Virus record (IMG/VR): IMGVR_UViG_3300017760_000096
Location: 1-23,962 of that record
DNA from: a virus
Length of the DNA stretch: 23,962 bases
Strand: one strand, 5' to 3'
Below are positions 7,872 to 23,377 of the stretch, piece by piece (the first letter of the stretch is position 1; every line of letters starts with the position of its first letter). A model generated the notes under the pieces. That model was not told where the DNA came from. It did not search any database and saw only the letters and a program-made list of their open reading frames with translations. Position numbers and translations under genes: made by a program.

Positions 7872-10082
7872 CTATTGTATTATTTGCGACTGCATTCCTT
7901 TATTATTAAATCTTGATAACTTCAAATCTAAACCTTTTTTTTCATATTTTGGGCGAGGGTGATATAAATGTCTATTACATGCCATAATAGCCAAGCCTGA
8001 ACTTATAGTAGCATCAAACTTAGTTCTTTTATTTATATCAAATTTAGCCCAATCATTTAGCGTTGTATTAAAATATATATTTCCAAACCCGTCATCATTC
8101 ATACCCACGTGTTTTTGTATATATGTTTCAATTGCCGCCGCATGCACTTGTTTAATGTCTTCAGAAGAGTTAGGTATTCCACCAACTTCTCTTTCTGCAA
8201 CTGATAGTTTATTCCAAACTTTATCTGGCCTATTCATTGCAAACCCTCTATAACCTCTTCGTTTTAAATAGTATAAAAGACGAGGTTTGTTATTTTCAGC
8301 AAGCATTGGCATACCATAATACACTAATGCCATCAATACATCTTCAAAAAACATTTCAGCAGTTTGTGGTCTAGCTATATATTCTAAAAAAAATGTATTA
8401 GGAGGCGCATCCTCCATGCTAAATTTTGTTAACCCATGTAAAGATCCTTTCGATCCTTGCCCGTCGGTTGTGCCTGATATATCATATGAATCACAGCCAA
8501 ACGCGCCAATGTGCTCATTGCCAGGGTGTTTAATTCCGTTTTTAGTTATTACGTTATTTTCTAACTTTTTATCAGGTGTCCATGACACTAAAAATCTTCC
8601 GCTTTTATTTGGCGCAAACATTACTTTAGTATCTTTAACACCGTTTTCCCAAAGAAAACTTCCTTTTGTAATAAATCCTTTTCTTTCTAAATCTTCATTA
8701 TAATCAATTTGTTCATATATTTTACTTAAATTGAAAATACTATTTTTAGCTTCATCTCTAAAAGCGTGTTCTTCGGTTCTCGGGAATTGTCTATAATATT
8801 CATTTAAACCATCAGAGTCATTTTTTAATCCTTCAACTTCATTTTGCCAAAAATCTATGACCCCCGTTTCAATTGGTAATCCATCTGCATCAGACTCGGG
8901 TACTTTTGGCGTATCGAATACAGGGTATCCATTAGAATTAATGTATCCTTCGTAATTCCATTCCATAGGTATAAACAAAGAATATAATCCTGAGCTAGTC
9001 TGGCCATTTTTATTTCTTTTTGTAACGTCTGAATCATCATAAAGTCTTTTAAAATTATCACCTCCTTTATCTAACGAATTTGACGTTGATCCCATCATAC
9101 ATTTGCCTATAATTCTGCTACCTAATCTTAATGTAGTTTTTGTTACGCGCCAGTTGTTTAATATATTGTCTGGTCTTTCCCATTTACCGCTTTCATCGTG
9201 AACTAAAAGGCGAAGCTTTTCTCCATCATAAGAGTTGTCACCTGTGTTTTTCCAATCAATGGTTGTATCCAATCCCTCCGGAAGCTCATTGTTATCCCCC
9301 AAGGTAGACCTGAGACTGTTTCTTGTAAACTTGGCTGCTGGTACTCTATAAGCAAGTTCGGTTTTAGGTCTATCCATCCCGTCTTGTATCGGTTTGAAAA
9401 AGAACGGGTAATTGACTGATATGGGTACGACTTTATCTGTAAACATTTTTTTTGCGTCTGCACCGCTCTTTGATAATATACCGAATCTAGCGTCTTTAGA
9501 TATTGTAGCTTGGTTAACTGTCTCGTTCGAGGCCATGAAAGAAAATCCAGACCGTCTATTTTTGAGATAGCATATTCCATATGATCTGTAATCGGCCTTG
9601 CAAGCTTCCCAGAATATATAAAATATCCTATTGGCTTCTCTATAATCTGGTCTTCCAACGTCAATTTTTGACCATTGCAAATACATATAGTGAGTCCCTG
9701 TAATATAAGTAGGCTCATTGTTATTATTAAACCAATAACCTTTTTCCCTTCTTTCAAATTCTTCATCTATATAAGGATACCATTTGTTTTTAAATTGTTC
9801 AGGATATGTTTCCCAATCAAATATAGTTTTTAAATTTTTAAACTCTTTTGGAAGATCTATTGCTGTCCACTTATTGTTTACTTTATTTAATTTAGTTACC
9901 GAAGGTAATGCTATACACAAGTTTTGAATTTCAACAATATCACCTATAGTTCCGTCTTTACTTATAACAACTACATCGTATTCTTTATTGTAACCGTATT
10001 CCCACTTTTTATATCTATTATTTTTTTTAATAATATTTTTTTTAATGGGGGAAACAGTCTTTATTAATGTTTGTTCGTACAT
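7872..10082 (-). CDS. terL: Terminase large subunit
   Basis: A 736-aa packaging motor: an ATPase that drives DNA into the head and a nuclease that cuts concatemers. The ATPase domain has a deviant P-loop at 173-181 (LKNRRSGFS; no Lys before the final Ser), a clear Walker B at 292-297 (LLVHDE) with catalytic E297, and a coupling motif at 331-335 (GSTSN). The nuclease domain (RNase H-like) has D531 and D534 in FGCDSYDISGT, then a RLLYYLKRRGYRGFAMNRPD stretch, and D690 in RTKFDATISSGLAIM. Upstream, residues 118-150 (FNNNNEPTYITGTHYMYLQW, RPDYREANRIFY) match large terminases of flavobacterial and crAss-like phages. The start is fixed by a TAATG overlap with the 91-aa gene. The missing P-loop Lys looks like a family variant, because the Walker B, coupling and nuclease motifs are intact. 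Confidence 0.88.
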   Translation of the reverse strand: MYEQTLIKTVSPIKKNIIKKNNRYKKWEYGYNKEYDVVVISKDGTIGDIVEIQNLCIALPSVTKLNKVNNKWTAIDLPKEFKNLKTIFDWETYPEQFKNKWYPYIDEEFERREKGYWFNNNNEPTYITGTHYMYLQWSKIDVGRPDYREANRIFYIFWEACKADYRSYGICYLKNRRSGFSFMASNETVNQATISKDARFGILSKSGADAKKMFTDKVVPISVNYPFFFKPIQDGMDRPKTELAYRVPAAKFTRNSLRSTLGDNNELPEGLDTTIDWKNTGDNSYDGEKLRLLVHDESGKWERPDNILNNWRVTKTTLRLGSRIIGKCMMGSTSNSLDKGGDNFKRLYDDSDVTKRNKNGQTSSGLYSLFIPMEWNYEGYINSNGYPVFDTPKVPESDADGLPIETGVIDFWQNEVEGLKNDSDGLNEYYRQFPRTEEHAFRDEAKNSIFNLSKIYEQIDYNEDLERKGFITKGSFLWENGVKDTKVMFAPNKSGRFLVSWTPDKKLENNVITKNGIKHPGNEHIGAFGCDSYDISGTTDGQGSKGSLHGLTKFSMEDAPPNTFFLEYIARPQTAEMFFEDVLMALVYYGMPMLAENNKPRLLYYLKRRGYRGFAMNRPDKVWNKLSVAEREVGGIPNSSEDIKQVHAAAIETYIQKHVGMNDDGFGNIYFNTTLNDWAKFDINKRTKFDATISSGLAIMACNRHLYHPRPKYEKKGLDLKLSRFNNKGMQSQIIQ

Positions 10083-11403: not shown

Positions 11404-14400
11404 TTATGCAAATGCCATATAGATGTATGAATCACTACTACCATTCACAACTACATAGCTATTTTGTATTTCAAACCCTGTTGGTGTGAAATCTATATTT
11501 ATAGTTGTATTACTTGCACCCCATTCAGCTATGTGAGATGATGCAAATATAGCGTTTCCATTGTCATTAATACTATCTCTTGCCGCATCTAAAATAAGCC
11601 ACCCTGTACTGCTTGTACTTGTAATGTTTTTTATCATTACCCATGAGGGCTGAAATCCTATTTCTATAGAATGGCCCGAAGAGCCTGTTCCTTTATACCG
11701 GCCTATTTTACTATAACCAGGAACACTTTTCCAAGCATAAACTATCATCTCACTACCATCTTTATTTACTTCTGAAGATGCAGCGGTGCCACTGCCCGCG
11801 TTGCCAGCTTGAAACGTAGTTTCGCTTACATTAGTAAATCTATTTGTGTATTGTGTTGATCTACCCGCATAATCTAAAAATAAAGTTTCTGATGGAGAAC
11901 TAAATACACTTAACCATGTAGCCCAACTAGTGCTTGCGGTATCCATATTTTTTACAACAAGAAAATCAGGTTGTGAAGATAAGCCATGAGTTATTCTTGA
12001 AGATAACACCCCGTCACCTTTATGTTTTGCAATACTAAACCCTGCTTTTTCGTTTACAGAAACTGAACTGTGCATTAAAGCTGAATAGAACTGTGCTTTC
12101 GTAGCATCATAATTAGCTTTTATTTGTGCGTCTGTTAATGCGCTTGTGTAAGATCTAAATTGTGCTATTTCACCTTGAGTGGTTGCTACCGAACTGCCTT
12201 TAAAAGAACCAAGTGATCCTCCATAAGTAGAGTTATTTACTTTATCATAGCTGGCTGTTTTAGTTGCTACAAGCTTTCCGTTTATATATATTTTTTTAAG
12301 TCTACCTTGCACAGTATAAGCAACATGATACCAAACCCCTACTGATAAAGTACCCGCATAAGAACTAGTGCTAAGTATAAAGTCTTGAGCACCCCCGGTA
12401 CCGGCATTCGGTCTTTCTTGATAATCTATAGTCCCATCACTTGTAACTCTTAAATTTTCATAATATTGGCTAGTTCCCATATCCCCTATATATAGAAGGC
12501 CGTCGCTATTCGAACCTGCTGGCAAATCATCTATTTTAACCCATAGTTCTCTTGTTACATCTTGCGTTGCTGTTCTACCTAAACCTACAGGTAAAGTTAC
12601 ATAATCTCCTGAACCATCATATTTAAGGCTTGTTCCCCAAGAATTAGCTTCATTTATAGTTGTATTAACTAAAGAACCTAAAGATAAATTATTAGACGTT
12701 TGATCTTTAATTCTATAACCTGTTGTGTTGTCAAATTCATATGTTATACTAGTATTAACACCATTATTGCTACCGGTTAAATTATTAGAATTACCATTAA
12801 GATTGAAGGCAGCAACACAACTACTATCACCTAATACCTGTAAAGTACTTGTAGTGCTTGATGTTTCACTAAATAATTTTCTAACTTCTGCATCAGTAAG
12901 CACTTTATTAAATAAACGCACTTGATCTATACTACCAGTAAAAAATCCTGAACCGGTATATACGCCTATGCGTAATTCATTTGGTGCCGCAGAACTTAAT
13001 AAACTACCACTTAGACTTGATTCTGTTTCTGTTCTTACACCATCTAAATATAATCTACAATCAGAGGCACTAGATCCCCACGTCATTACACAATGATGCC
13101 ATTGTCCGGATGTTAAAGAACCTCCAGCTTGCATTAAACAATAATAAGCATTTTGTGCTTGGCTATAGACCCACCCTTTTAATGTGCCTGATTCAATATA
13201 CATATGTGCGCCATAAGCTGATCCATCTGTATTTGCTAAAACATAGCCATTACCTGTATATTTAACCCACGCTGAATACGACCTTACAGTGTTACTCGAA
13301 ACACTGCTGTCTGTTACAACTATTTTTGAACTTGATCCATTAAATTTAGCAACTTGATTTGTTGTATCAAAACTATTTGGATCATATGAGCTAAATGAAT
13401 CTACATCTATATTATTAAGTAAACCTGTTTGTAATACATTAGCTGTTGTGCCAACGCCTTGATATAATGTTCTTGTAGCATCATAGTTAGCTCTAATTTG
13501 TGCTTGTGTTAATTCTGCTGTATATATACGTGCTTGGCCAAATTTACCATCAAAAGTTTGTGTAGTAATAGCACCACCTGTATAATTTCCTAATGCCATG
13601 TTATTTGTACCATTTGCCGTCAGGCTATAATCAAAAGTTTTAACACTCATTAATATACCATTAATATAAAGCTTACCTGTAGTACCATTTATTGTCCAAA
13701 CAAAATGAGTCCATTTTTCTAGATAAGGCGTATAGTCTAATATGCCAGAAGCAATGTTGTTATTGTTTGTACCATTACCTATAAATACACTTACCTGGTT
13801 ATCATTATAAATTCTTGTCCCAAATCTTCCAGTTGTATCTGTTCCCGAAGTATTAAAATCTCCCCATATATATCTATAACTACTATCATTATCAACCCAT
13901 TGCCAAGTTTCAAAAGTCATAGTAGTACTTGAATTTTGTTGCCAATCTGTTCGTATATAATCATTTGTTCCATCTAAATCAAAATAATTACCATAAGATC
14001 TGTCTACAAATGTTGGTGAGTTTTGTAAAGCATTAGATACTGTTGAACTTGTAGCAATATTAGTAAGATCTGCTCCTGTTCCTGCGTAAGTATTAGAATC
14101 AGCAAAGGTATAATGCAATACTAAATTAGATGTAAGTATACCAGCTGATGTATATGTTGGTTTTTTAGTTACTTGAGTATCACCTGCTTTCCAAGCCCAC
14201 GCCACGTGATTACTTCCGCTTCCGTTATAATAAACACTACTACCAACAGTAAAACCATTTGAATTAAAGCTATTAAAATAAGCTGAACCGGGCCCTCCCG
14301 CAGTATCTTGTGCGTTTGTAATATCGGGATAAATAATTTTATTCGCCCCCCGCATAGAATCGTTTAATACATGATTATGGCCCGCCGAACGGTTTTTTAT

Positions 14401-17400
14401 CCATACAAGATCTGGTTGAAAATTTAAATCAATTAGCTGTGTTGCCCCATTACCTGGGTATGCAACAGCTTTAAAATGATTTGCAGGGTATTGAGTTGTG
14501 CCTGTGCCTTTTTCTAAAAATTTTTCTGTATCTGATGTTTGGCCAGTTCCTTGTGCATATTTTGCAGAATCTTCTGCAATTGCTATATAAATATATGTTT
14601 GATCGTCTGCATTAGTATCACCCCAGGTATTTGCTGGTTTAAATCCATTAGATAAAAAATCAAAAGATCCATAAGATGATTCTGCATCAGTAGCATTTGG
14701 GAAAAGATTTAAATTTCTTGTGTTAGAAATATTTCTTTTATTATCTACAATATACCAAAATCCACCAGAAGCGCTTGATTCTTTTACTAATAGCCAAGCG
14801 GGTTTAAAACCCGTATAAACAAAAGGTCCATTAGCATTTCCATTTCCAGTGTACGTGCCTATCTTACTATATCCTTCAACAGAATGAAAACAATAATTGA
14901 TCATAGTTCCACTTGTCCTCGAATAAATATAGTCAGTAGTTGGTGAAGTAAGTGAAGAGTTTCCTTTAAGAGCTGTATCATTAAGAACTATAAAATCGTT
15001 TGAACCATCAATAACAGTCGTAAATACGTACCAATCTTCAACCCCACCCGTTTGTTTATTAATAATCAGTTCAGGGGCTTGATTTAAGCCATGATAAACT
15101 GTCTGATTAACTGTACCACTTCCTGTGTATTTTACTATACTAAATCCTGATTTTGTATTTGCTGATATTTTTTCAGCTGCTAGTGATCCTGCTAAAGACG
15201 CTGTAGATGCAACACCATCTATCATTACGCTACCAGGTGTAGGTTGGGCTCCTGCTGAAGCAGTATTTGTTGCAGTTGGAGCTCCTCCCGCTTTCCAAGC
15301 CCACGCAATATATTCATTTCCTGCTAAATTAACATAGTTGCCACTACCACTATTATTTCCTAAAGAAAATCCATTAGCATCAAAAGACTCTAACTGATCA
15401 AGGTAGCTTGTTTGTTCAACAGCGGTACTATTAGAGGATAAAATTGAATTAGTACCTCTTACGCTGTCAATTAAAGCATTATAGTATCCGCTTGTGCTTT
15501 TAATATTTTGAATCCAAATAAAATCCGGTTGAAAATCTAATGATTTTATTTCATTTCTAACACCAGTACCATTATACGTTACACTTTCAAAATAATCTCT
15601 AGGTTTTTTCTGATTAAGTGGGTCTACGTTAGTAGAAGTTGGTAAATTATCACTTGATAATGCTTTATAACCTGAAGGTGGTGTATATGAAAATCCTTTT
15701 GCACCAAAATTAAAGTTAAGGGCTAAATTTGAATCAGCATTTTGCGCAAAAATTCTTTTTGGTCCTGATATACTACTTGCAACAGCATTACCTGAATTCT
15801 GTACAGATCCATTAATATAAATATGTAAAGTTCCACCATCTGCATCATAAGCCCAACCCACAATTGCACCATTTGGGTTAGTTGAAGTGCAGGTTAATAA
15901 TAATGTTCCGTCATCCCAAAATCTTCCGTCATCTAGCATGCCAAGTATTCCGTTGCTTGCAGATGTAAGCTGTCGCATATTAGTCATAGAAGAGCTCCAA
16001 AAAGTGTGATTAAGAATACCTGTAAAATGTAAATATGTACCACCATTTCCTTTATATTCAACTTCCCAATACCATTTACCTGTTTCAGGCAAATCTGGCC
16101 CTAAAAAGCGAGCATAATTACTATTGTTTGATGAATCTAATAACGTTAAACCTCCGTTTGTTACATTACCTTCAGAGGTCATTTGTCCTTCTGGTGTAAA
16201 TGTTGGGAATGCTACGTCAGGCTTATCTCCCGTGTGATCTGAGCCATCAAGATTTGTTCCGTTTGCAACGGCTCCTTTTGCATTACCGGATATATCTGCT
16301 AAACTAAGAACTTCATAATGACCTTGTGTAGCCCTAAAATTTTGTACAACTTCTTGAGCTGTTAAAGCTTTGCTATACACTCTAGATTGTGCAATACCTA
16401 TATTTGCATGGTAACCATCTGTTCTTTTAGCTAATAATAAATTTTCTGAACCATTCGTCCTTGTAGTAAAAGTACCAGTCTTAGCGTCTGTTAATGCACC
16501 ATTAATATATACCCTTGAAATGCCATTAGTAGAACTGAATGTGGCCGTTACATGACTCCATTTGTTGAGAGGCACGGTACCTGTAGTTGTGTTAGTAATT
16601 ACATCTTGAGCCGAGCTGTAATTTCCTCCAGAGTCTGCAACAGTCCATCTAAAATTTCGAGAGCTACCTGAGCTAAATCTTAAATCCCATTTATAGTTTG
16701 AACCAGAGGTATAAAGTAAATTAATCATTTCATCGTTACTAACCGTTACTGGATAAATCCACATTTCTACAGAAAAATCAGCTAATGATTGAAAACTAGA
16801 ATTAGAAGTTATTGTTGCGAAATCATCGCTGCCATCAAAAAGAAAATATCCTTCATTATTACCAGAATATGTTGGCCCATTAGTTAGTATTGCATGATGA
16901 TTATTACCACTTTTATCGCTCCATGTAGTACCACTAAAACTTGTTTCATCAGTGCCGTCAGCATCCCAATCTCCTGCATCTAAATTTATAACACTACCTG
17001 AAACAATAGATCCTTCATCACTGTTATTAAAATTTAAATGCCAACCATTAAGGCCATAAAAATATTTATATTTTGTAGCATTATAGTTTTGTAAAACATT
17101 AGCATCTGTAAATGCAGAATTATAAATTTGTACTTCACTTATGTGTGCTTTTAAATATCCAACATTATTATTGTCAGAACCGGCACCGGTATAACCAAGC
17201 TTGTTAAATTTATAGTTGCTATTAGTATAGTTTATAAATGATCCATTCCAGTTGTCACTATCAACTAGAGTACTATTTAAATATAAACGTATACCATTAC
17301 TATCACCCGTAAATACTAAATGATTCCAAACTTTATCAGCTACAACTGGTGTTTGAGCTTCAGGATATACTGGTCCCGGCTGTACTATTACAGCTTTTAC

Positions 17401-18534
17401 TGTATTATCTGTTTGTATATTTATATATATATAAATGTCATCTAAAAGATGAACTAATCTACCTCCGTATGTGGTATCTGTTTGATTACCATCTCTTCTA
17501 AACCAAAGAGAAATAGCAAAAGCAGCTGCGGTACGAATAGGTTCATCTATTGTAGATGGTAAAGTAATAAAACTACTAGTCCCATTAAAGCTTGCAATAT
17601 TATAATTATTTTGTTGGAAAGTAACATTAGACGCTGTACCATTATAAGTTGTACCACCAACTGATGTATCGTTAGCATTACCTTGTAATTGATAATTTGC
17701 AATAAGATTAGTAGTAATTAAAGTATCAGTACTTGGTGTATTAACTCCTTTAGGCACCCATATACCATTACTTAATTCACCAAATTCATTAGGGAGTAAT
17801 GCACTTCCGTCTACAAATATAAAATTAGCATATGTAGCATCTGCTCCATAACCATCGCCAAAGGCCCAATCATTAATTCTTTGATTAGTACCAAATTGAA
17901 TTGCCTGGCCATCTGACATATTAGCTACCTGCTCCCACGTTAATCTTATGCCATTTGCATAACAGTTTACTTTTATATCATCTTGCGGCACATTACTATC
18001 TAAAGAAACAACAAAATTGTACCAACCTGATTTATCTATAAATATAGCTTTTGTAACATAATTTGAAAGGCTATTAATCCTAACTTGCAGCTTGTGATTT
18101 GTTCCGGAAGAATGCAAGAGTATTGAAACAAGGCTTCCGTCTGCGGTACCTGATGTATATAAATATCTTTTGCTTGACTCGGTTTCATGAATTTTTATCC
18201 AAAAACTAAATGTACCTCTTGTATTTGTAAATACCGGTGCCGTTGTCAATGTAGGTTCCAAAACTTTAACACTATTGTGAGAAGACGATAACCCGTCCAT
18301 ATGTAAAGATTTTCCTAAAGCGCCTGTAGCTTCAGTAGTTGGGAATATTTGAAACAGTGTTTGGCCTCTAAGTTCTGACATAGATCTACCGGAAACAGTA
18401 CTACCATCACCTACTGCTGTAAATTTAACAGTATTGTTATCACCTAAAGATACATTTGATTCATTTGTATCTGCCTGTAACGTTGCGTTTACGTCATCGT
18501 TTAGTTTTATTTCACCGGTACTAGGAATTGGCAT
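11404..18534 (-). CDS. Giant LamG/SPRY-domain adsorption or tail-spike protein (2376 aa)
   Basis: A mosaic beta protein, probably for carbohydrate or surface binding at the tail. Approximate domains: 1-60, an N-terminal linker also typical of such proteins (PIPSTGEIKLNDDVN, SGRSMSELRGQ); LamG-type jellyrolls at 75-245 (GTFSFWIKI), 275-490 (SLWFRRDGN, WNHLVFTGDSNGIRLYLNS), 515-738 (FSVEMWIYP, KWSHVTATFSS), 1474-1692 (KWTHFVWTINGTTGKLYING), 1728-1888 (QWHHCVMTWGSS) and 1972-2145 (WYHVAYTVQGRLKKIYINGK); a SPRY-like domain at 806-960 (ETGKWYWEVEYKGNGGTYLH, GWAYDADGGTLHIYINGS). Phage modules with [FL]QPD[FL][VI]WI[KQ]N and AWAWKAG occur at 982-1080 and 1355-1450. Related modules with GFSI.K..G.G and GYSKIG.Y.G.G occur at about 1128-1318 and 2168-2376. 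Most LamG units close with a '-R-Y---LT-A-----YDAT' helix. No enzyme motif and no C-terminal chaperone is visible. It overlaps the fibre gene by 14 bases. Confidence 0.78.
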   Translation of the reverse strand: MPIPSTGEIKLNDDVNATLQADTNESNVSLGDNNTVKFTAVGDGSTVSGRSMSELRGQTLFQIFPTTEATGALGKSLHMDGLSSSHNSVKVLEPTLTTAPVFTNTRGTFSFWIKIHETESSKRYLYTSGTADGSLVSILLHSSGTNHKLQVRINSLSNYVTKAIFIDKSGWYNFVVSLDSNVPQDDIKVNCYANGIRLTWEQVANMSDGQAIQFGTNQRINDWAFGDGYGADATYANFIFVDGSALLPNEFGELSNGIWVPKGVNTPSTDTLITTNLIANYQLQGNANDTSVGGTTYNGTASNVTFQQNNYNIASFNGTSSFITLPSTIDEPIRTAAAFAISLWFRRDGNQTDTTYGGRLVHLLDDIYIYINIQTDNTVKAVIVQPGPVYPEAQTPVVADKVWNHLVFTGDSNGIRLYLNSTLVDSDNWNGSFINYTNSNYKFNKLGYTGAGSDNNNVGYLKAHISEVQIYNSAFTDANVLQNYNATKYKYFYGLNGWHLNFNNSDEGSIVSGSVINLDAGDWDADGTDETSFSGTTWSDKSGNNHHAILTNGPTYSGNNEGYFLFDGSDDFATITSNSSFQSLADFSVEMWIYPVTVSNDEMINLLYTSGSNYKWDLRFSSGSSRNFRWTVADSGGNYSSAQDVITNTTTGTVPLNKWSHVTATFSSTNGISRVYINGALTDAKTGTFTTRTNGSENLLLAKRTDGYHANIGIAQSRVYSKALTAQEVVQNFRATQGHYEVLSLADISGNAKGAVANGTNLDGSDHTGDKPDVAFPTFTPEGQMTSEGNVTNGGLTLLDSSNNSNYARFLGPDLPETGKWYWEVEYKGNGGTYLHFTGILNHTFWSSSMTNMRQLTSASNGILGMLDDGRFWDDGTLLLTCTSTNPNGAIVGWAYDADGGTLHIYINGSVQNSGNAVASSISGPKRIFAQNADSNLALNFNFGAKGFSYTPPSGYKALSSDNLPTSTNVDPLNQKKPRDYFESVTYNGTGVRNEIKSLDFQPDFIWIQNIKSTSGYYNALIDSVRGTNSILSSNSTAVEQTSYLDQLESFDANGFSLGNNSGSGNYVNLAGNEYIAWAWKAGGAPTATNTASAGAQPTPGSVMIDGVASTASLAGSLAAEKISANTKSGFSIVKYTGSGTVNQTVYHGLNQAPELIINKQTGGVEDWYVFTTVIDGSNDFIVLNDTALKGNSSLTSPTTDYIYSRTSGTMINYCFHSVEGYSKIGTYTGNGNANGPFVYTGFKPAWLLVKESSASGGFWYIVDNKRNISNTRNLNLFPNATDAESSYGSFDFLSNGFKPANTWGDTNADDQTYIYIAIAEDSAKYAQGTGQTSDTEKFLEKGTGTTQYPANHFKAVAYPGNGATQLIDLNFQPDLVWIKNRSAGHNHVLNDSMRGANKIIYPDITNAQDTAGGPGSAYFNSFNSNGFTVGSSVYYNGSGSNHVAWAWKAGDTQVTKKPTYTSAGILTSNLVLHYTFADSNTYAGTGADLTNIATSSTVSNALQNSPTFVDRSYGNYFDLDGTNDYIRTDWQQNSSTTMTFETWQWVDNDSSYRYIWGDFNTSGTDTTGRFGTRIYNDNQVSVFIGNGTNNNNIASGILDYTPYLEKWTHFVWTINGTTGKLYINGILMSVKTFDYSLTANGTNNMALGNYTGGAITTQTFDGKFGQARIYTAELTQAQIRANYDATRTLYQGVGTTANVLQTGLLNNIDVDSFSSYDPNSFDTTNQVAKFNGSSSKIVVTDSSVSSNTVRSYSAWVKYTGNGYVLANTDGSAYGAHMYIESGTLKGWVYSQAQNAYYCLMQAGGSLTSGQWHHCVMTWGSSASDCRLYLDGVRTETESSLSGSLLSSAAPNELRIGVYTGSGFFTGSIDQVRLFNKVLTDAEVRKLFSETSSTTSTLQVLGDSSCVAAFNLNGNSNNLTGSNNGVNTSITYEFDNTTGYRIKDQTSNNLSLGSLVNTTINEANSWGTSLKYDGSGDYVTLPVGLGRTATQDVTRELWVKIDDLPAGSNSDGLLYIGDMGTSQYYENLRVTSDGTIDYQERPNAGTGGAQDFILSTSSYAGTLSVGVWYHVAYTVQGRLKKIYINGKLVATKTASYDKVNNSTYGGSLGSFKGSSVATTQGEIAQFRSYTSALTDAQIKANYDATKAQFYSALMHSSVSVNEKAGFSIAKHKGDGVLSSRITHGLSSQPDFLVVKNMDTASTSWATWLSVFSSPSETLFLDYAGRSTQYTNRFTNVSETTFQAGNAGSGTAASSEVNKDGSEMIVYAWKSVPGYSKIGRYKGTGSSGHSIEIGFQPSWVMIKNITSTSSTGWLILDAARDSINDNGNAIFASSHIAEWGASNTTINIDFTPTGFEIQNSYVVVNGSSDSYIYMAFA

Positions 18535-21500
18535 CTTCTAATTTTTTTTCAAGGTTATTAACTTTTTGTGTAAGCTCTTTAACTGCTTCAATAAGTACAG
18601 CACTTAATTTTTCATAATCTACTGTTTTGACTTTATGGCCTTCAAATAATTCTTTTTCATGTACTATGTGTGGTATTACTTCTTCAACTTCCTGTGCTAT
18701 AACACCTAAATCGTGTTTACCTTCTCTGCTACCACTTTTCCAATCGTATTCAACACCTCTTAGTTGATTCACAGTTTCAAGTGCATCGGGTATTGTTTCA
18801 ATGTTTTCTTTAAGCGATACATCTGAAACAGAAGTAGAAAACGCAATAACATCACCATCAACTAATAGATCTTTATTTGTTGAATCTATTTCCATTATAA
18901 CAGTACCTCCAAATGCCCATTGGTGTTTTGTAGATGTTGATTTATAATAGTTGTTTGAACTATAACCTATTTGTTCAATATCATCTCTACAATCAGCATC
19001 TATATTCATTGTAGTGCCTGTAAGTGTCATACCCGCGCCACCTGAAATACTTGTAGCTGTAACAAAGTTTGCTTTAGTAATTGTTTTATGAGCGGCCGCA
19101 TCAGCATCATAAAATAATATTTCATCTGCGTCGGCTATACTTGTTTCAACAGTTAAATCATTTATTGCAAGACCTATATTGCCAGTCTCTGTAACAGTGC
19201 CTGTAAGCCCTGTGGAAGTACCAACTGATCTAACCCCAGCACCTACATATATGGTGCCACCCATATTTGAATGATTATCACAATAATAATACAATGTCTT
19301 AGGTGTATCTTGTTCAACTGTAATTTCTGTATAAGTTGAAGCGGTTGTTACGCCTGTAGTATAAGCAGAGCTATTACCTGAATCTGTAGAAAATCTAAGT
19401 GGGTGAGTTGTACCAGTTTGTGTAAATCTATATTTAAAACCTGGCATTAAAGTTACATCAGCTTGTTGTGTGCCATCTATATAGTATTTACCACCAGAAT
19501 CTGTCACAACTATATCATTTCTAAAATATTTAAGTGTTATTTCGCCGGCTGCTTTTCTTGATTCAGTTGCACTATTTTGTAATATAAATTCTGTTGTTCC
19601 AGATATATCAGCAGTCATATCAGTTAATTCAGAAAAATCTAAATTAAGTGTTATTGTTTCATCAGAACTTTGATTTGTTGTAAAATCACCAGCGGCGTCA
19701 GTTAATCCTGTTCCACCTGCAATTGTTATTGTAGCATTATTAGCAGCAGAAGGTATTGTAGGCGCACCTGTAAGATTACCATAAGCTAAATAATAACTAG
19801 CAGCCTGACTACCTAATGTAGTAGCATTAAGAGTTGAAGCTGTTGTAAGTAATTCTACTTCAGCACCCGCAAGACCTGCATACCATTTGCTCTGTGATTC
19901 ATTCCATATTAATGATGCATCAGTACCTGAACTTCCTCTTTCTATATTTATACCACCATTTACTGCAGTTCCTGTAAGATCAGAATTAAGTAATATAATA
20001 TTATCATAAATAGTAACTGTTTCTGTATTTACACTAGTTGTTGTGCCTGATACAGTTAAATTACCAGTTACAGCAACATTACCTGCGAAACCTACAGTAT
20101 CGCCCGCATCTGTGCCGATTGTAATGGTTTGATCTGCAGCACCGCCCGCTGACTCAAGGGCAGCAAGTCTAGTTAATAAATTAGCATTTGTAACATCTGA
20201 ATCTGTATTACTTGTAAATGTTAGGTTACTTTGTAAATACGATTGAAGAACACTAACAGCCATTTTTTTAACAACCCCAGCATCACTTATTGCAAATTCA
20301 TCAGTACTGGCTAGACCGGATGCTAGTGCAGCTTGACCTGAAATAATATCATCACTTAACATTGCATGATGAACAGCGCCTGCGGCTATAGTTGTTGAAA
20401 TACTTGTAGTGCCACTACCGGTTACATCACCCGAAAGTGTAATGCTTTGGTTACCAGTTGCATAACCTAAACCTGTTACAAAATCATATATCTGATCACC
20501 TGTTGCAAGAGAAGTTGAGCCATTTGATACAGCGCCTGTATTTATAGCGGTTGATGTAACACCTGTTACGTGACCATTGCCATCTAAAGTTAAATCTTGA
20601 ATATATGTAAGTCCTGAATTATCTACTGAAGAAGCCGCACCTGAAATACTTGGGTGGGCTGATGCTAATGTAAAGTTTGGATATGTACCGGTAATAGTCA
20701 TATTACCCCCGTTACTCAGCGCTACAGTTTGATCGTATTTATTAGTGCTCCCTTGTGTTATATTATCTGTTGTTATGGTTGCATTTTCAAATGCGCCTGA
20801 AGTACTATTAAATTTTAAAAACTGATTATTAGATGCGCTTGATACAGTAACATCTGATAAATCACTAAGAGCGGCTGCTGCTGCAGCTCCACCTACACTG
20901 ATTGCAGATAAACTCCTGTGTATACCACCTGTTAATATTTTCGCTTCAGATGCAGAAGATAAATTTGTAGCATTACCTCTTACTATAATTGCGCCTAAAT
21001 ATATTGCTTGTTCTGATGTATTACTAGATTCAGTAAAACTTTCTAACTGATACTGTTGTTCTGCAACAGATAAAGATGCATATTCTTCTTTACCATAGTA
21101 AACAACTATAGTGTTTATTTCATTTGGAAAATAATATAGTCTTTGTACAGAAAACTTAGTTGCAGTCATAGATGCAAGTGTTCCTGAACTGTCATCGTAT
21201 TTTGTAGGATCGATTGCTGTATAGCCTGATCCGTCATTTGTATCAAGTACATGGCCTGTAGAACTATCCGCATAATATCTATGTATAACAGCATCTGTTT
21301 TTGCAGCATCCGAAACAAGAGATGGATTATTAGGATCTGAAGAATAATTTCTACCAAATGCCCAAGCGACTCCCGCTGCTCTGTTTAATTTTAAATTACT
21401 ACCGTTTGCTGTAACTAAATGGCCTGATTTTTTCATTGGGCCAAAAATTCTTGAAAACTCTTGCAGTTGCGGAATAGCCCCATAAGCAGTTACTGGGAAT

Positions 21501-23377
21501 GTTTTTACAAAATCTATAGTAGCACTTGTGTGTATAATAGATCCTATAATAATGTTATGAGCAATTTGTGCGTCTGTAAAAGGTGTAGTTTGTTGATTAA
21601 CAGTACCTGATGCATCTATATAAACCCAGGTATTTAATTGTTTATTACTACTACTGGTAAGACCTGTACATGTAAATGTTTGTTGAGACCAAGCTATATG
21701 CTTTATTTCAGGGTGTGGTTCGCCCGAACCTGACTCTTTATTCAGGTCATTTATAATACCTGTACCTGCTGCAATTGTAACTTGTGTATTGTTTGCTTTA
21801 GTAAGTGTGCCACCACTTGTAATACCAGACGGAATGTTTTCAGTAACGTCATCTATAGACAGTTCTTTATCATCATATCTAAAATGTAATACATTGGTGC
21901 CGTCTTTTGCTTTTATAAATATTGCGTTATCATCTGTTGTTGTGCTTGCAGAAGTAAAAGTTAATACATTGTCAACCGTCATGTTATCAGCAGATGCATT
22001 AGCTGTAACAGTTAAATTATTAGCAACGTTTAAGTTATTACTTATTGTTACATCATTTGGAAGACCAATTGTAAAAGTTCTGTTTGTAGTTAAGTTTTGT
22101 GCAGACGACGGAGAAGTTTCTATTTCGTTTGCAGTACCTGTAAGAGTTATTGTAGTGTTTTGATCAAGAATTGTAGGTTTATTTAATATAAACGAATCTA
22201 CATTTGTATCGGTTTCAGTCCAGTTAGACTGTACATTCTGTTCTGCATTTGCAGCAATATTAGTAAGTTTTGTTCTTTCAGCCCCAGTGATTATAGCACC
22301 AGAACCAGCACTTGTTACATCAGAAAGATCTGTAACGTTATGGTTACTAAGTACTGTTAAATCTGTAGGTTTGTTTTGTATAAATGCATCAGAACTGCTA
22401 ACACTCTCATTCCAATTCGCTTGTACATTTACCTCAGCATTCGCTGCTATATTGTTTAATTTAGTTTGAAGTGTGTCAGTAAAATCATTTGCAGACAATC
22501 CTTTACCTGATACTACTGCAACTTTACCATCTAAAGCAGCTTGTAACCCTGATATACTGGATATACCCAGTGATGTAAGTGTTGTTCTATTAGCTTTTAT
22601 ATAAGTTACTACTTCTTGTAATACATCAAGATCAGTATCGTCTGAGTTAAGAATTACATTTATAGCTGTTGTTTCGGCTTTTAGTGCTTTACCTTGCTCG
22701 GCTGATAAAGGCACGCTGGTCCCGCCTGTAGTTAAATCATTTACAATATCTGTATATCGTACTCTTCCATTGATAGTAGCAACGTCTGCTCTTTCTGCTG
22801 TAGTTATTATAGCACCTGAACCAGCTGATGTTACATCATTTAACGATGTTACAGAAAAAGAATTAAGGTTTTTAAGATTGTTACCTAAAGTTGAAATGTA
22901 ATACTCTTCACCTTTTTCTAATTGACCACTAGCATCTTGATTTGATACAGAAAGTATTTTGTATTGTCCCGAAGAAACGTCAGCAACCGAGTCAACTCTA
23001 TATATACCAAAATTATTAGTATCCCCTTTCTTTGTTATCCTAACGTCATACCCTGCAAGTACGTCTATATAATTTGATACATCGCCATTTTGTAAATTTT
23101 TATCTGTTAAATACAGTGTTTGTATATCTGAAAAATTTGTGCTGTTATATGTACCTGTACTCGTTGTAATAATGCCAAAAGAATCGGCATCAACATTATA
23201 ATCTTGTGCTTTGAATACAATACCATCAAATTGTTTGATAAAGTTTTCGTCATTTGCAAGGTCTAATAAACTTTGTACAGAAAAGTTTTTTGTAACGTTA
23301 TCGCCTGAATTAGACCCGATAACTTTATCGTTTAAATGTAGATCAACATCTTGATCGTATGTAAATATTCTTGCCAT
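18521..23377 (-). CDS. Tail fibre/spike with C-terminal S74 intramolecular chaperone (1618 aa)
   Basis: A trimeric-fibre type protein. Residues 1-165 are a probable anchor domain (RIFTYDQDVDLHLNDKVIGS). Residues 175-400 hold degenerate repeats of LSDVTSAGSGAIIT-AER and NIAANAE-NVQ-NW-E---S-DAFI-NKPT. Residues about 545-820 form a distinct domain (GIINDLNKESGSGEPHPEIK, LNTWVYIDASGTVNQQ, INTIVVYYGKEEYASLS) that looks like a baseplate/receptor-binding module I cannot name. Residues 880-1240 are Ser/Thr/Gly-rich fibre repeats (SLSGDVTGSGTTSISTTI type, NLTVSGTTTSVNTETVTIYD). Residues about 1300-1378 are a cupredoxin-like segment with H1325, C1366, H1369 and M1372. From S1518 to about 1612 lies the S74 chaperone (SDVSLKENI, HDLGVIAQEVEEVIPHIV, VDYEKLSAVLIEAVKEL), ending in a coiled coil. 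S1518 and K1523 have the spacing of the Ser-Lys self-cleavage dyad of endosialidase tailspikes, so the tip is probably cut off after folding. Confidence 0.82.
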   Translation of the reverse strand: MARIFTYDQDVDLHLNDKVIGSNSGDNVTKNFSVQSLLDLANDENFIKQFDGIVFKAQDYNVDADSFGIITTSTGTYNSTNFSDIQTLYLTDKNLQNGDVSNYIDVLAGYDVRITKKGDTNNFGIYRVDSVADVSSGQYKILSVSNQDASGQLEKGEEYYISTLGNNLKNLNSFSVTSLNDVTSAGSGAIITTAERADVATINGRVRYTDIVNDLTTGGTSVPLSAEQGKALKAETTAINVILNSDDTDLDVLQEVVTYIKANRTTLTSLGISSISGLQAALDGKVAVVSGKGLSANDFTDTLQTKLNNIAANAEVNVQANWNESVSSSDAFIQNKPTDLTVLSNHNVTDLSDVTSAGSGAIITGAERTKLTNIAANAEQNVQSNWTETDTNVDSFILNKPTILDQNTTITLTGTANEIETSPSSAQNLTTNRTFTIGLPNDVTISNNLNVANNLTVTANASADNMTVDNVLTFTSASTTTDDNAIFIKAKDGTNVLHFRYDDKELSIDDVTENIPSGITSGGTLTKANNTQVTIAAGTGIINDLNKESGSGEPHPEIKHIAWSQQTFTCTGLTSSSNKQLNTWVYIDASGTVNQQTTPFTDAQIAHNIIIGSIIHTSATIDFVKTFPVTAYGAIPQLQEFSRIFGPMKKSGHLVTANGSNLKLNRAAGVAWAFGRNYSSDPNNPSLVSDAAKTDAVIHRYYADSSTGHVLDTNDGSGYTAIDPTKYDDSSGTLASMTATKFSVQRLYYFPNEINTIVVYYGKEEYASLSVAEQQYQLESFTESSNTSEQAIYLGAIIVRGNATNLSSASEAKILTGGIHRSLSAISVGGAAAAAALSDLSDVTVSSASNNQFLKFNSTSGAFENATITTDNITQGSTNKYDQTVALSNGGNMTITGTYPNFTLASAHPSISGAASSVDNSGLTYIQDLTLDGNGHVTGVTSTAINTGAVSNGSTSLATGDQIYDFVTGLGYATGNQSITLSGDVTGSGTTSISTTIAAGAVHHAMLSDDIISGQAALASGLASTDEFAISDAGVVKKMAVSVLQSYLQSNLTFTSNTDSDVTNANLLTRLAALESAGGAADQTITIGTDAGDTVGFAGNVAVTGNLTVSGTTTSVNTETVTIYDNIILLNSDLTGTAVNGGINIERGSSGTDASLIWNESQSKWYAGLAGAEVELLTTASTLNATTLGSQAASYYLAYGNLTGAPTIPSAANNATITIAGGTGLTDAAGDFTTNQSSDETITLNLDFSELTDMTADISGTTEFILQNSATESRKAAGEITLKYFRNDIVVTDSGGKYYIDGTQQADVTLMPGFKYRFTQTGTTHPLRFSTDSGNSSAYTTGVTTASTYTEITVEQDTPKTLYYYCDNHSNMGGTIYVGAGVRSVGTSTGLTGTVTETGNIGLAINDLTVETSIADADEILFYDADAAAHKTITKANFVTATSISGGAGMTLTGTTMNIDADCRDDIEQIGYSSNNYYKSTSTKHQWAFGGTVIMEIDSTNKDLLVDGDVIAFSTSVSDVSLKENIETIPDALETVNQLRGVEYDWKSGSREGKHDLGVIAQEVEEVIPHIVHEKELFEGHKVKTVDYEKLSAVLIEAVKELTQKVNNLEKKLEDANS
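22239..22852 (-). repeat. Degenerate internal repeats in the fibre gene
   Basis: Two copies of a unit encoding DVTSAGSGAIIT-AER lie at about 22288-22339 and 22801-22852, the second with several silent or near-silent differences. A linked unit encoding NIAANAE-NVQ-NW occurs at about 22239-22265 and 22425-22460. The pattern indicates old tandem duplication within the fibre shaft. Confidence 0.6.

Follow-up and report, generated by a model that had tools for sequence, protein, structure and literature searches.

Results

Virus record and fibre gene

The window, that is, the whole stretch of DNA analysed, covered the 23,962 bases of the virus record IMGVR_UViG_3300017760_000096, in which the structural genes lay on the minus strand and encoded a portal, virion structural proteins, two very large fibre/virion proteins and a holin. 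The tail-fibre gene under study (18521..23377, minus strand; 1618 aa) was recognized by its open reading frame, by PHROG matches to tail-fibre and baseplate proteins, and by a C-terminal Peptidase_S74 (chaperone of endosialidase), for which PF13884 matched aa 1518-1572 above its cut-off (E 6e-16), as in chaperone-assisted tail fibres of the S74 type. Self-cleavage was presumed, from the rule for endosialidase-type fibres, at S1518 of the S-D-x3-K motif (computed position 18824..18826, minus strand). The neighbouring protein (11404-18534, minus strand; 2376 aa) presented four DUF7483 and six Laminin_G_3 stretches. Furthermore, a protein of terminase size (7872-10082) had as its top match a 61-kb spring-water phage record, followed by Flavobacterium and Cellulophaga podophages (87 records), and this resemblance points to a member of the Bacteroidota as the probable host. 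The window virus is a probable marine virus of bacteria.

A cupredoxin-like domain (aa 1281-1382; 19232..19537, minus strand) with an HMM core at aa 1289-1378 (19244-19513, minus strand) was found within the fibre by AlphaFold2, Foldseek and VIA-align, ending 136 residues before S1518, the presumed end of the mature fibre (computed position). The first-pass annotation had placed a copper-site motif at 19240-19420, where the domain indeed lies, although it extends over a wider interval. It contains one cysteine, two histidines and two methionines, of which the cysteine, both histidines and one methionine are the four proposed ligands. These are H1325 in the HPLRF strand (19403..19405), the sole cysteine C1366 (19280..19282), H1369 (19271..19273) and the axial M1372 (19262..19264), all on the minus strand and predicted from their position and their conservation in 18 non-redundant relatives. 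The residue numbers given to them earlier agreed with the open reading frame, but the segment quoted as starting at residue 1305, LMPGFKYRF, begins at 1310. The four residues follow one another in the cupredoxin order His, Cys, His, Met, which is the ligand set of type-1 copper proteins. Moreover, the motif CxxHxxM occurred once in the 1618 residues, compared with 0.0003 occurrences expected from composition, and appeared in 9 out of 20,000 protein shuffles; this test, together with the conservation described below, ruled out a chance origin.

Fold and profile matches

AlphaFold2, run on 13 relatives, returned a pLDDT of 90.6 and a pTM of 0.83 for the fibre domain. When the model was compared with the PDB by Foldseek, 65 matches were obtained at E≤0.001 with moderate TM-scores (about 0.5-0.65), and the 50 matches listed were all plastocyanins, rusticyanins, pseudoazurins, amicyanins, AcoP or copper enzymes with cupredoxin domains. 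The apo-plastocyanin structure 2pcy and the P96 and M98 mutants of amicyanin were among these matches. VIA-align gave its best score with the copper nitrite reductase 2dv6 (Z 9.7 over 88 residues, 2.5 Å), followed by rusticyanin (9.0) and two-domain laccases (about 8.8). The three methods thus agreed on the Greek-key beta-sandwich of the cupredoxin fold, and the comparison with plastocyanin and other cupredoxins that had been proposed as a check came out in favour of the original claim. The model also matched BFVD entries for small proteins with a beta-sandwich from metagenomic lineages of Pithovirus and Marseillevirus (LCPAC, LCMAC), with E-values down to 4e-8.

At the sequence level, the window domain scored 14.3 bits against PF00127 (Copper-bind), below the curated cut-off of 21.2, and weak matches to this family were found in 8 of the 13 relatives (best E 9e-4) and, at E≤0.01, in 4 of 43 relatives (best E 3e-5). 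A profile of the domain alignment paired its own histidine and YYC..H with the ligands of plastocyanin at E 0.15. In sequence and profile searches of the PDB with the domain, the best cupredoxin appeared at E 0.14, and a sialidase and antibody chains scored equally well or better, whereas the NCBIfam search returned no match for either the whole fibre or the domain. The link in sequence to solved proteins being insignificant, the case for a cupredoxin rests on the fold and the ligands.

The antibody chains among these weak matches, and the copy in phage P-HM1 noted as containing PF07686, would fit an Ig-like decoration domain in which the likeness of the YYC strand to a copper site is accidental. 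However, cupredoxins were the first matches of the window model, the residues H, C, H and M are retained jointly, and a single cysteine leaves no Ig disulfide, for which a V-set domain has two. One cysteine per domain was found in all 97 instances of a set not selected on the motif, and in 179 of 184 instances of a motif-selected set. An Ig-like origin is therefore extremely improbable in general, and for the window it was discarded on the fold matches and the single cysteine. As to the P-HM1 protein itself (PHM1_104; L274), its copy carries all four ligands, and its annotation as Ig V-set PF07686 is probably owed to the YYC strand.

Comparison with known copper proteins

The fold and the ligand order His...Cys-x2-His-x2-Met are common to the fibre domain and to amicyanin, plastocyanin, pseudoazurin and rusticyanin. 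The C-x2-H-x2-M spacing, which we take to be that of amicyanin (C92/H95/M98), had been attributed to plastocyanin in the first-pass annotation; this attribution could not be maintained, as the aligned Phormidium plastocyanin reads C-x2-H-x4-M. Aligned plastocyanin also has HN at the first ligand, where the fibre has HP. Furthermore, blue copper proteins are free exported electron carriers, while this domain is embedded in a 1618-aa fibre and stays below the PF00127 cut-off, so that by its loop and its setting it is not a plastocyanin (PetE). The cupredoxin domains of two-domain laccases and nitrite reductases gave the best VIA-align scores, and the HPF motif of multicopper oxidases resembles the HPLRF of the fibre. 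However, those enzymes bind type-2/3 copper by His-x-His, and no HxH was found anywhere in the 1618 residues.

The same absence separates the domain from the fibre tips of the T4 gp37 type, where an iron-binding HxH was proposed to meet host metal receptors in a 'Ferrojan/Trojan Horse' manner (PMC11705849). Both would place a metal site (predicted in our case) in a phage fibre, although ligands, fold and metal differ, and the iron in T4-type fibres makes metal sites in fibres not outlandish (PMC11705849).

Conservation of the ligands

The conservation of the four ligands was measured in several sets of relatives. In a scan whose query and patterns lay before C, H and M, 218 relatives were found and the best 80 were examined, many of them on contigs already sampled. 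CxxHxxM was kept in 77 of these 80 loci, the other three reaching the contig end before the motif, and the first histidine was present in 79, the last one ending before its position. For a non-redundant alignment, 100 domains were gathered from the pre-Cys scan and from named phages, four short ones were dropped, and the 96 remaining (78 distinct) were reduced to 18 sequences below 70% identity. Without the motif having been used in this selection, the invariant columns were limited to His, Cys, His, Met and one Phe, although the underlying profile had been built from a motif-selected set and may miss remote copies lacking the ligands. In 26 named-phage loci, chosen for diversity from overlapping lists of 71, 330 and 354 records, all four ligands were present in 27 out of 28 domains; the residue after the first histidine varied (HP, HQ or HG), the histidine itself being constant. 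The figure of 183 out of 184 in the motif-selected set is inflated, since CxxHxxM itself served as search pattern, and the unselected sets are the fairer tests.

Only two ligand-poor copies were seen: a structural protein of S-RIM12 lacking all four residues, and the second of the copies in a Bacteroidetes protein, with F/S/Q/M at the four positions. In both, several ligands had been lost together; the four thus act as one unit, and such block-wise loss is what would be expected of a working site. Free loss of single ligands, which would have spoken against the initial proposal, was thus not observed in the alignment of homologues. These two copies nevertheless provide some ground for the view that the four residues hold a different metal (zinc, or Cu(I) alone), or have been inherited as a relic that binds none. 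In particular, the model of one of them (L160; pLDDT 90.5, from an alignment that also contained ligand-bearing relatives) had no PDB match at E≤0.001, and ephrin, which we take to be a copper-free cupredoxin-like fold, ranked first at E 0.28. A relic, however, would shed its ligands singly and often, and the axial methionine was kept in 18 out of 18 sequences, which leaves this view improbable.

Distribution and carrier proteins

Searches with the window domain retrieved 71 phage records, and 330 and 354 overlapping records were obtained with divergent copies as query; by name, almost all were phages of Synechococcus, Prochlorococcus, Pelagibacter and Methylophilales or other marine phages. 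With a pattern that included CxxHxxM, at least 544 relatives were found in viral contigs and 79 in genome contigs, the latter nearly all marine by title. The statement in the first-pass annotation that similar segments occur in other marine phage structural proteins was therefore well founded. The phage carriers were annotated as tail fibre, gp9 baseplate connector, baseplate wedge or virion structural protein. The C-terminal domain of cyanophage gp9, a protein described by name only as a baseplate wedge tail fibre connector, is this same domain with its ligands kept, in a different carrier protein and phage type. The carrier of S-SCSM1 is annotated as 'virion protein', and 45 virion proteins were detected by mass spectrometry in the particle proteome of this phage (PMC9602691).

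Within complete open reading frames, 139 instances were placed at the N-end (41), internally (35) or at the C-end (63), and some carriers held two or three domains in tandem. In the T7-type fibres of pelagiphages the domain lies about 50 residues from the C-end. Given the many N-end and internal copies, a role at the fibre tip cannot be general.

A redox-active or electron-exchanging module, or a phage-borne auxiliary photosynthesis gene of plastocyanin type, is suggested by one cyanophage copy labelled PetE in GenBank. This 168-aa protein of S-SCSM2R (PQ898602.1; L267:2767-3273) consists of the domain after a phage-like N-terminal stretch. However, it adjoins FhaB and a peptidase-S8-domain protein and has no evident signal peptide by eye, and the carriers elsewhere are structural proteins; its plastocyanin label is probably an error for a virion protein, and we regard the redox alternative as very unlikely.

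Cellular carriers were surface proteins of marine bacteria and archaea. In Poseidoniales the domain closed secreted proteins with collagen repeats, and it likewise made up the C-terminal part of a cadherin/PKD protein (signal peptides were assessed by eye). The marine archaeal collagen-repeat proteins (L104:5290-6330 and L103:4981-6303) end in the domain, in a layout of trimer-forming stalk and copper-site head like that of fibres. In SAR86 (L137, L142 and L171), lipoprotein-like genes of about 180 aa, with signal peptides judged by eye, encode this domain alone in a common gene order, lying between two genes, the one about 260 aa long (in L171 a short-chain dehydrogenase) and the other about 970-1030 aa long (in L171 without a Pfam match). 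No copper genes were found among the 10 neighbour proteins scanned near the SAR86, Poseidoniales and gammaproteobacterial copies. Further copies in Bacteroidota and Photobacterium (L112, L118, L124, L128, L136 and L140) lay within very long open frames of more than 3000 aa, which are probably giant surface proteins. In a domain tree of 71 rows and 105 columns with few forks resolved, five changes between 'cell' and 'phage' labels were needed, at least three of them forced, the labels having been assigned by hand with several genome-contig rows counted as phage by look; the placement of the window copy was unsupported.

Discussion

The cupredoxin fold, the complete His-Cys-His-Met set within a tail fibre, its near-invariance in relatives and the repeated use of the domain in virion structural proteins of marine phages emerge from the computational analysis, in agreement with the central claim of the first-pass annotation. 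Stabilisation of the shaft and contact with a host receptor, the two roles suggested there, would be possible uses of such a site. His2CysMet in a cupredoxin fold constitutes a type-1 copper site, and for this reason copper binding by the fibre domain is inferred. Overall, we lean towards a fibre or virion module with a cupredoxin fold and an amicyanin-type type-1 site, made in the apo form, loaded with metal outside the cell and offering a rigid recognition surface.

The fibre would be synthesised as apo-protein in a copper-poor cytoplasm. Since cytosolic copper is kept very low, loading would probably occur after lysis or at the next host, copper or a similar soft metal being taken up extracellularly or on the surface of the host. 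Once bound, the metal would hold the loops of the ligands in place. The exposed His face, the docking surface of cupredoxins for their partners, could act as a rigid recognition surface, with three copies per trimer. In the window, the module would sit near the distal end of the mature, S74 chaperone-assisted fibre. Free cupredoxins meet their partners through this His face, and on that analogy a rigid metal-bearing recognition face is favoured, pure stiffening being the main rival.

According to this rival, the copper site is purely structural, the metal stiffening a modular fibre domain against seawater, proteases and shear with no receptor role. Its placement at N-end, middle and C-end, as well as its tandem copies, fits a general building block. 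However, cupredoxins fold stably without copper, so that stability alone hardly explains near-invariant ligands, and we consider a solely structural site somewhat unlikely. A metal-loaded recognition or rigidifying role is favoured for the fibre domain, and a domain derived from a copper protein but no longer binding copper is less likely.

In the portions of the open-access literature covered by the search, cupredoxin domains were nowhere described from phage fibres. The fold is old, but its virion setting, outside PF00127 by the cut-off, appears to be undescribed in those portions. For annotation, the 'plastocyanin' calls in cyanophage genomes should be read with caution, as they can be virion domains. 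Should copper be bound by the site, metal measurements on cultured cyanophage or pelagiphage particles would test metal-assisted adsorption directly, and marine phages would become a candidate class of copper ligands. Speculatively, and with little likelihood in our judgement, many marine tailed phages might bear tens of blue-copper sites on each particle, in both fibres and baseplates, with a copper-loaded face docking on copper or redox proteins of the host surface; such docking would parallel, with copper, the iron 'Trojan Horse', and the particles would form a pool of strongly bound copper in seawater that has gone unrecognised.
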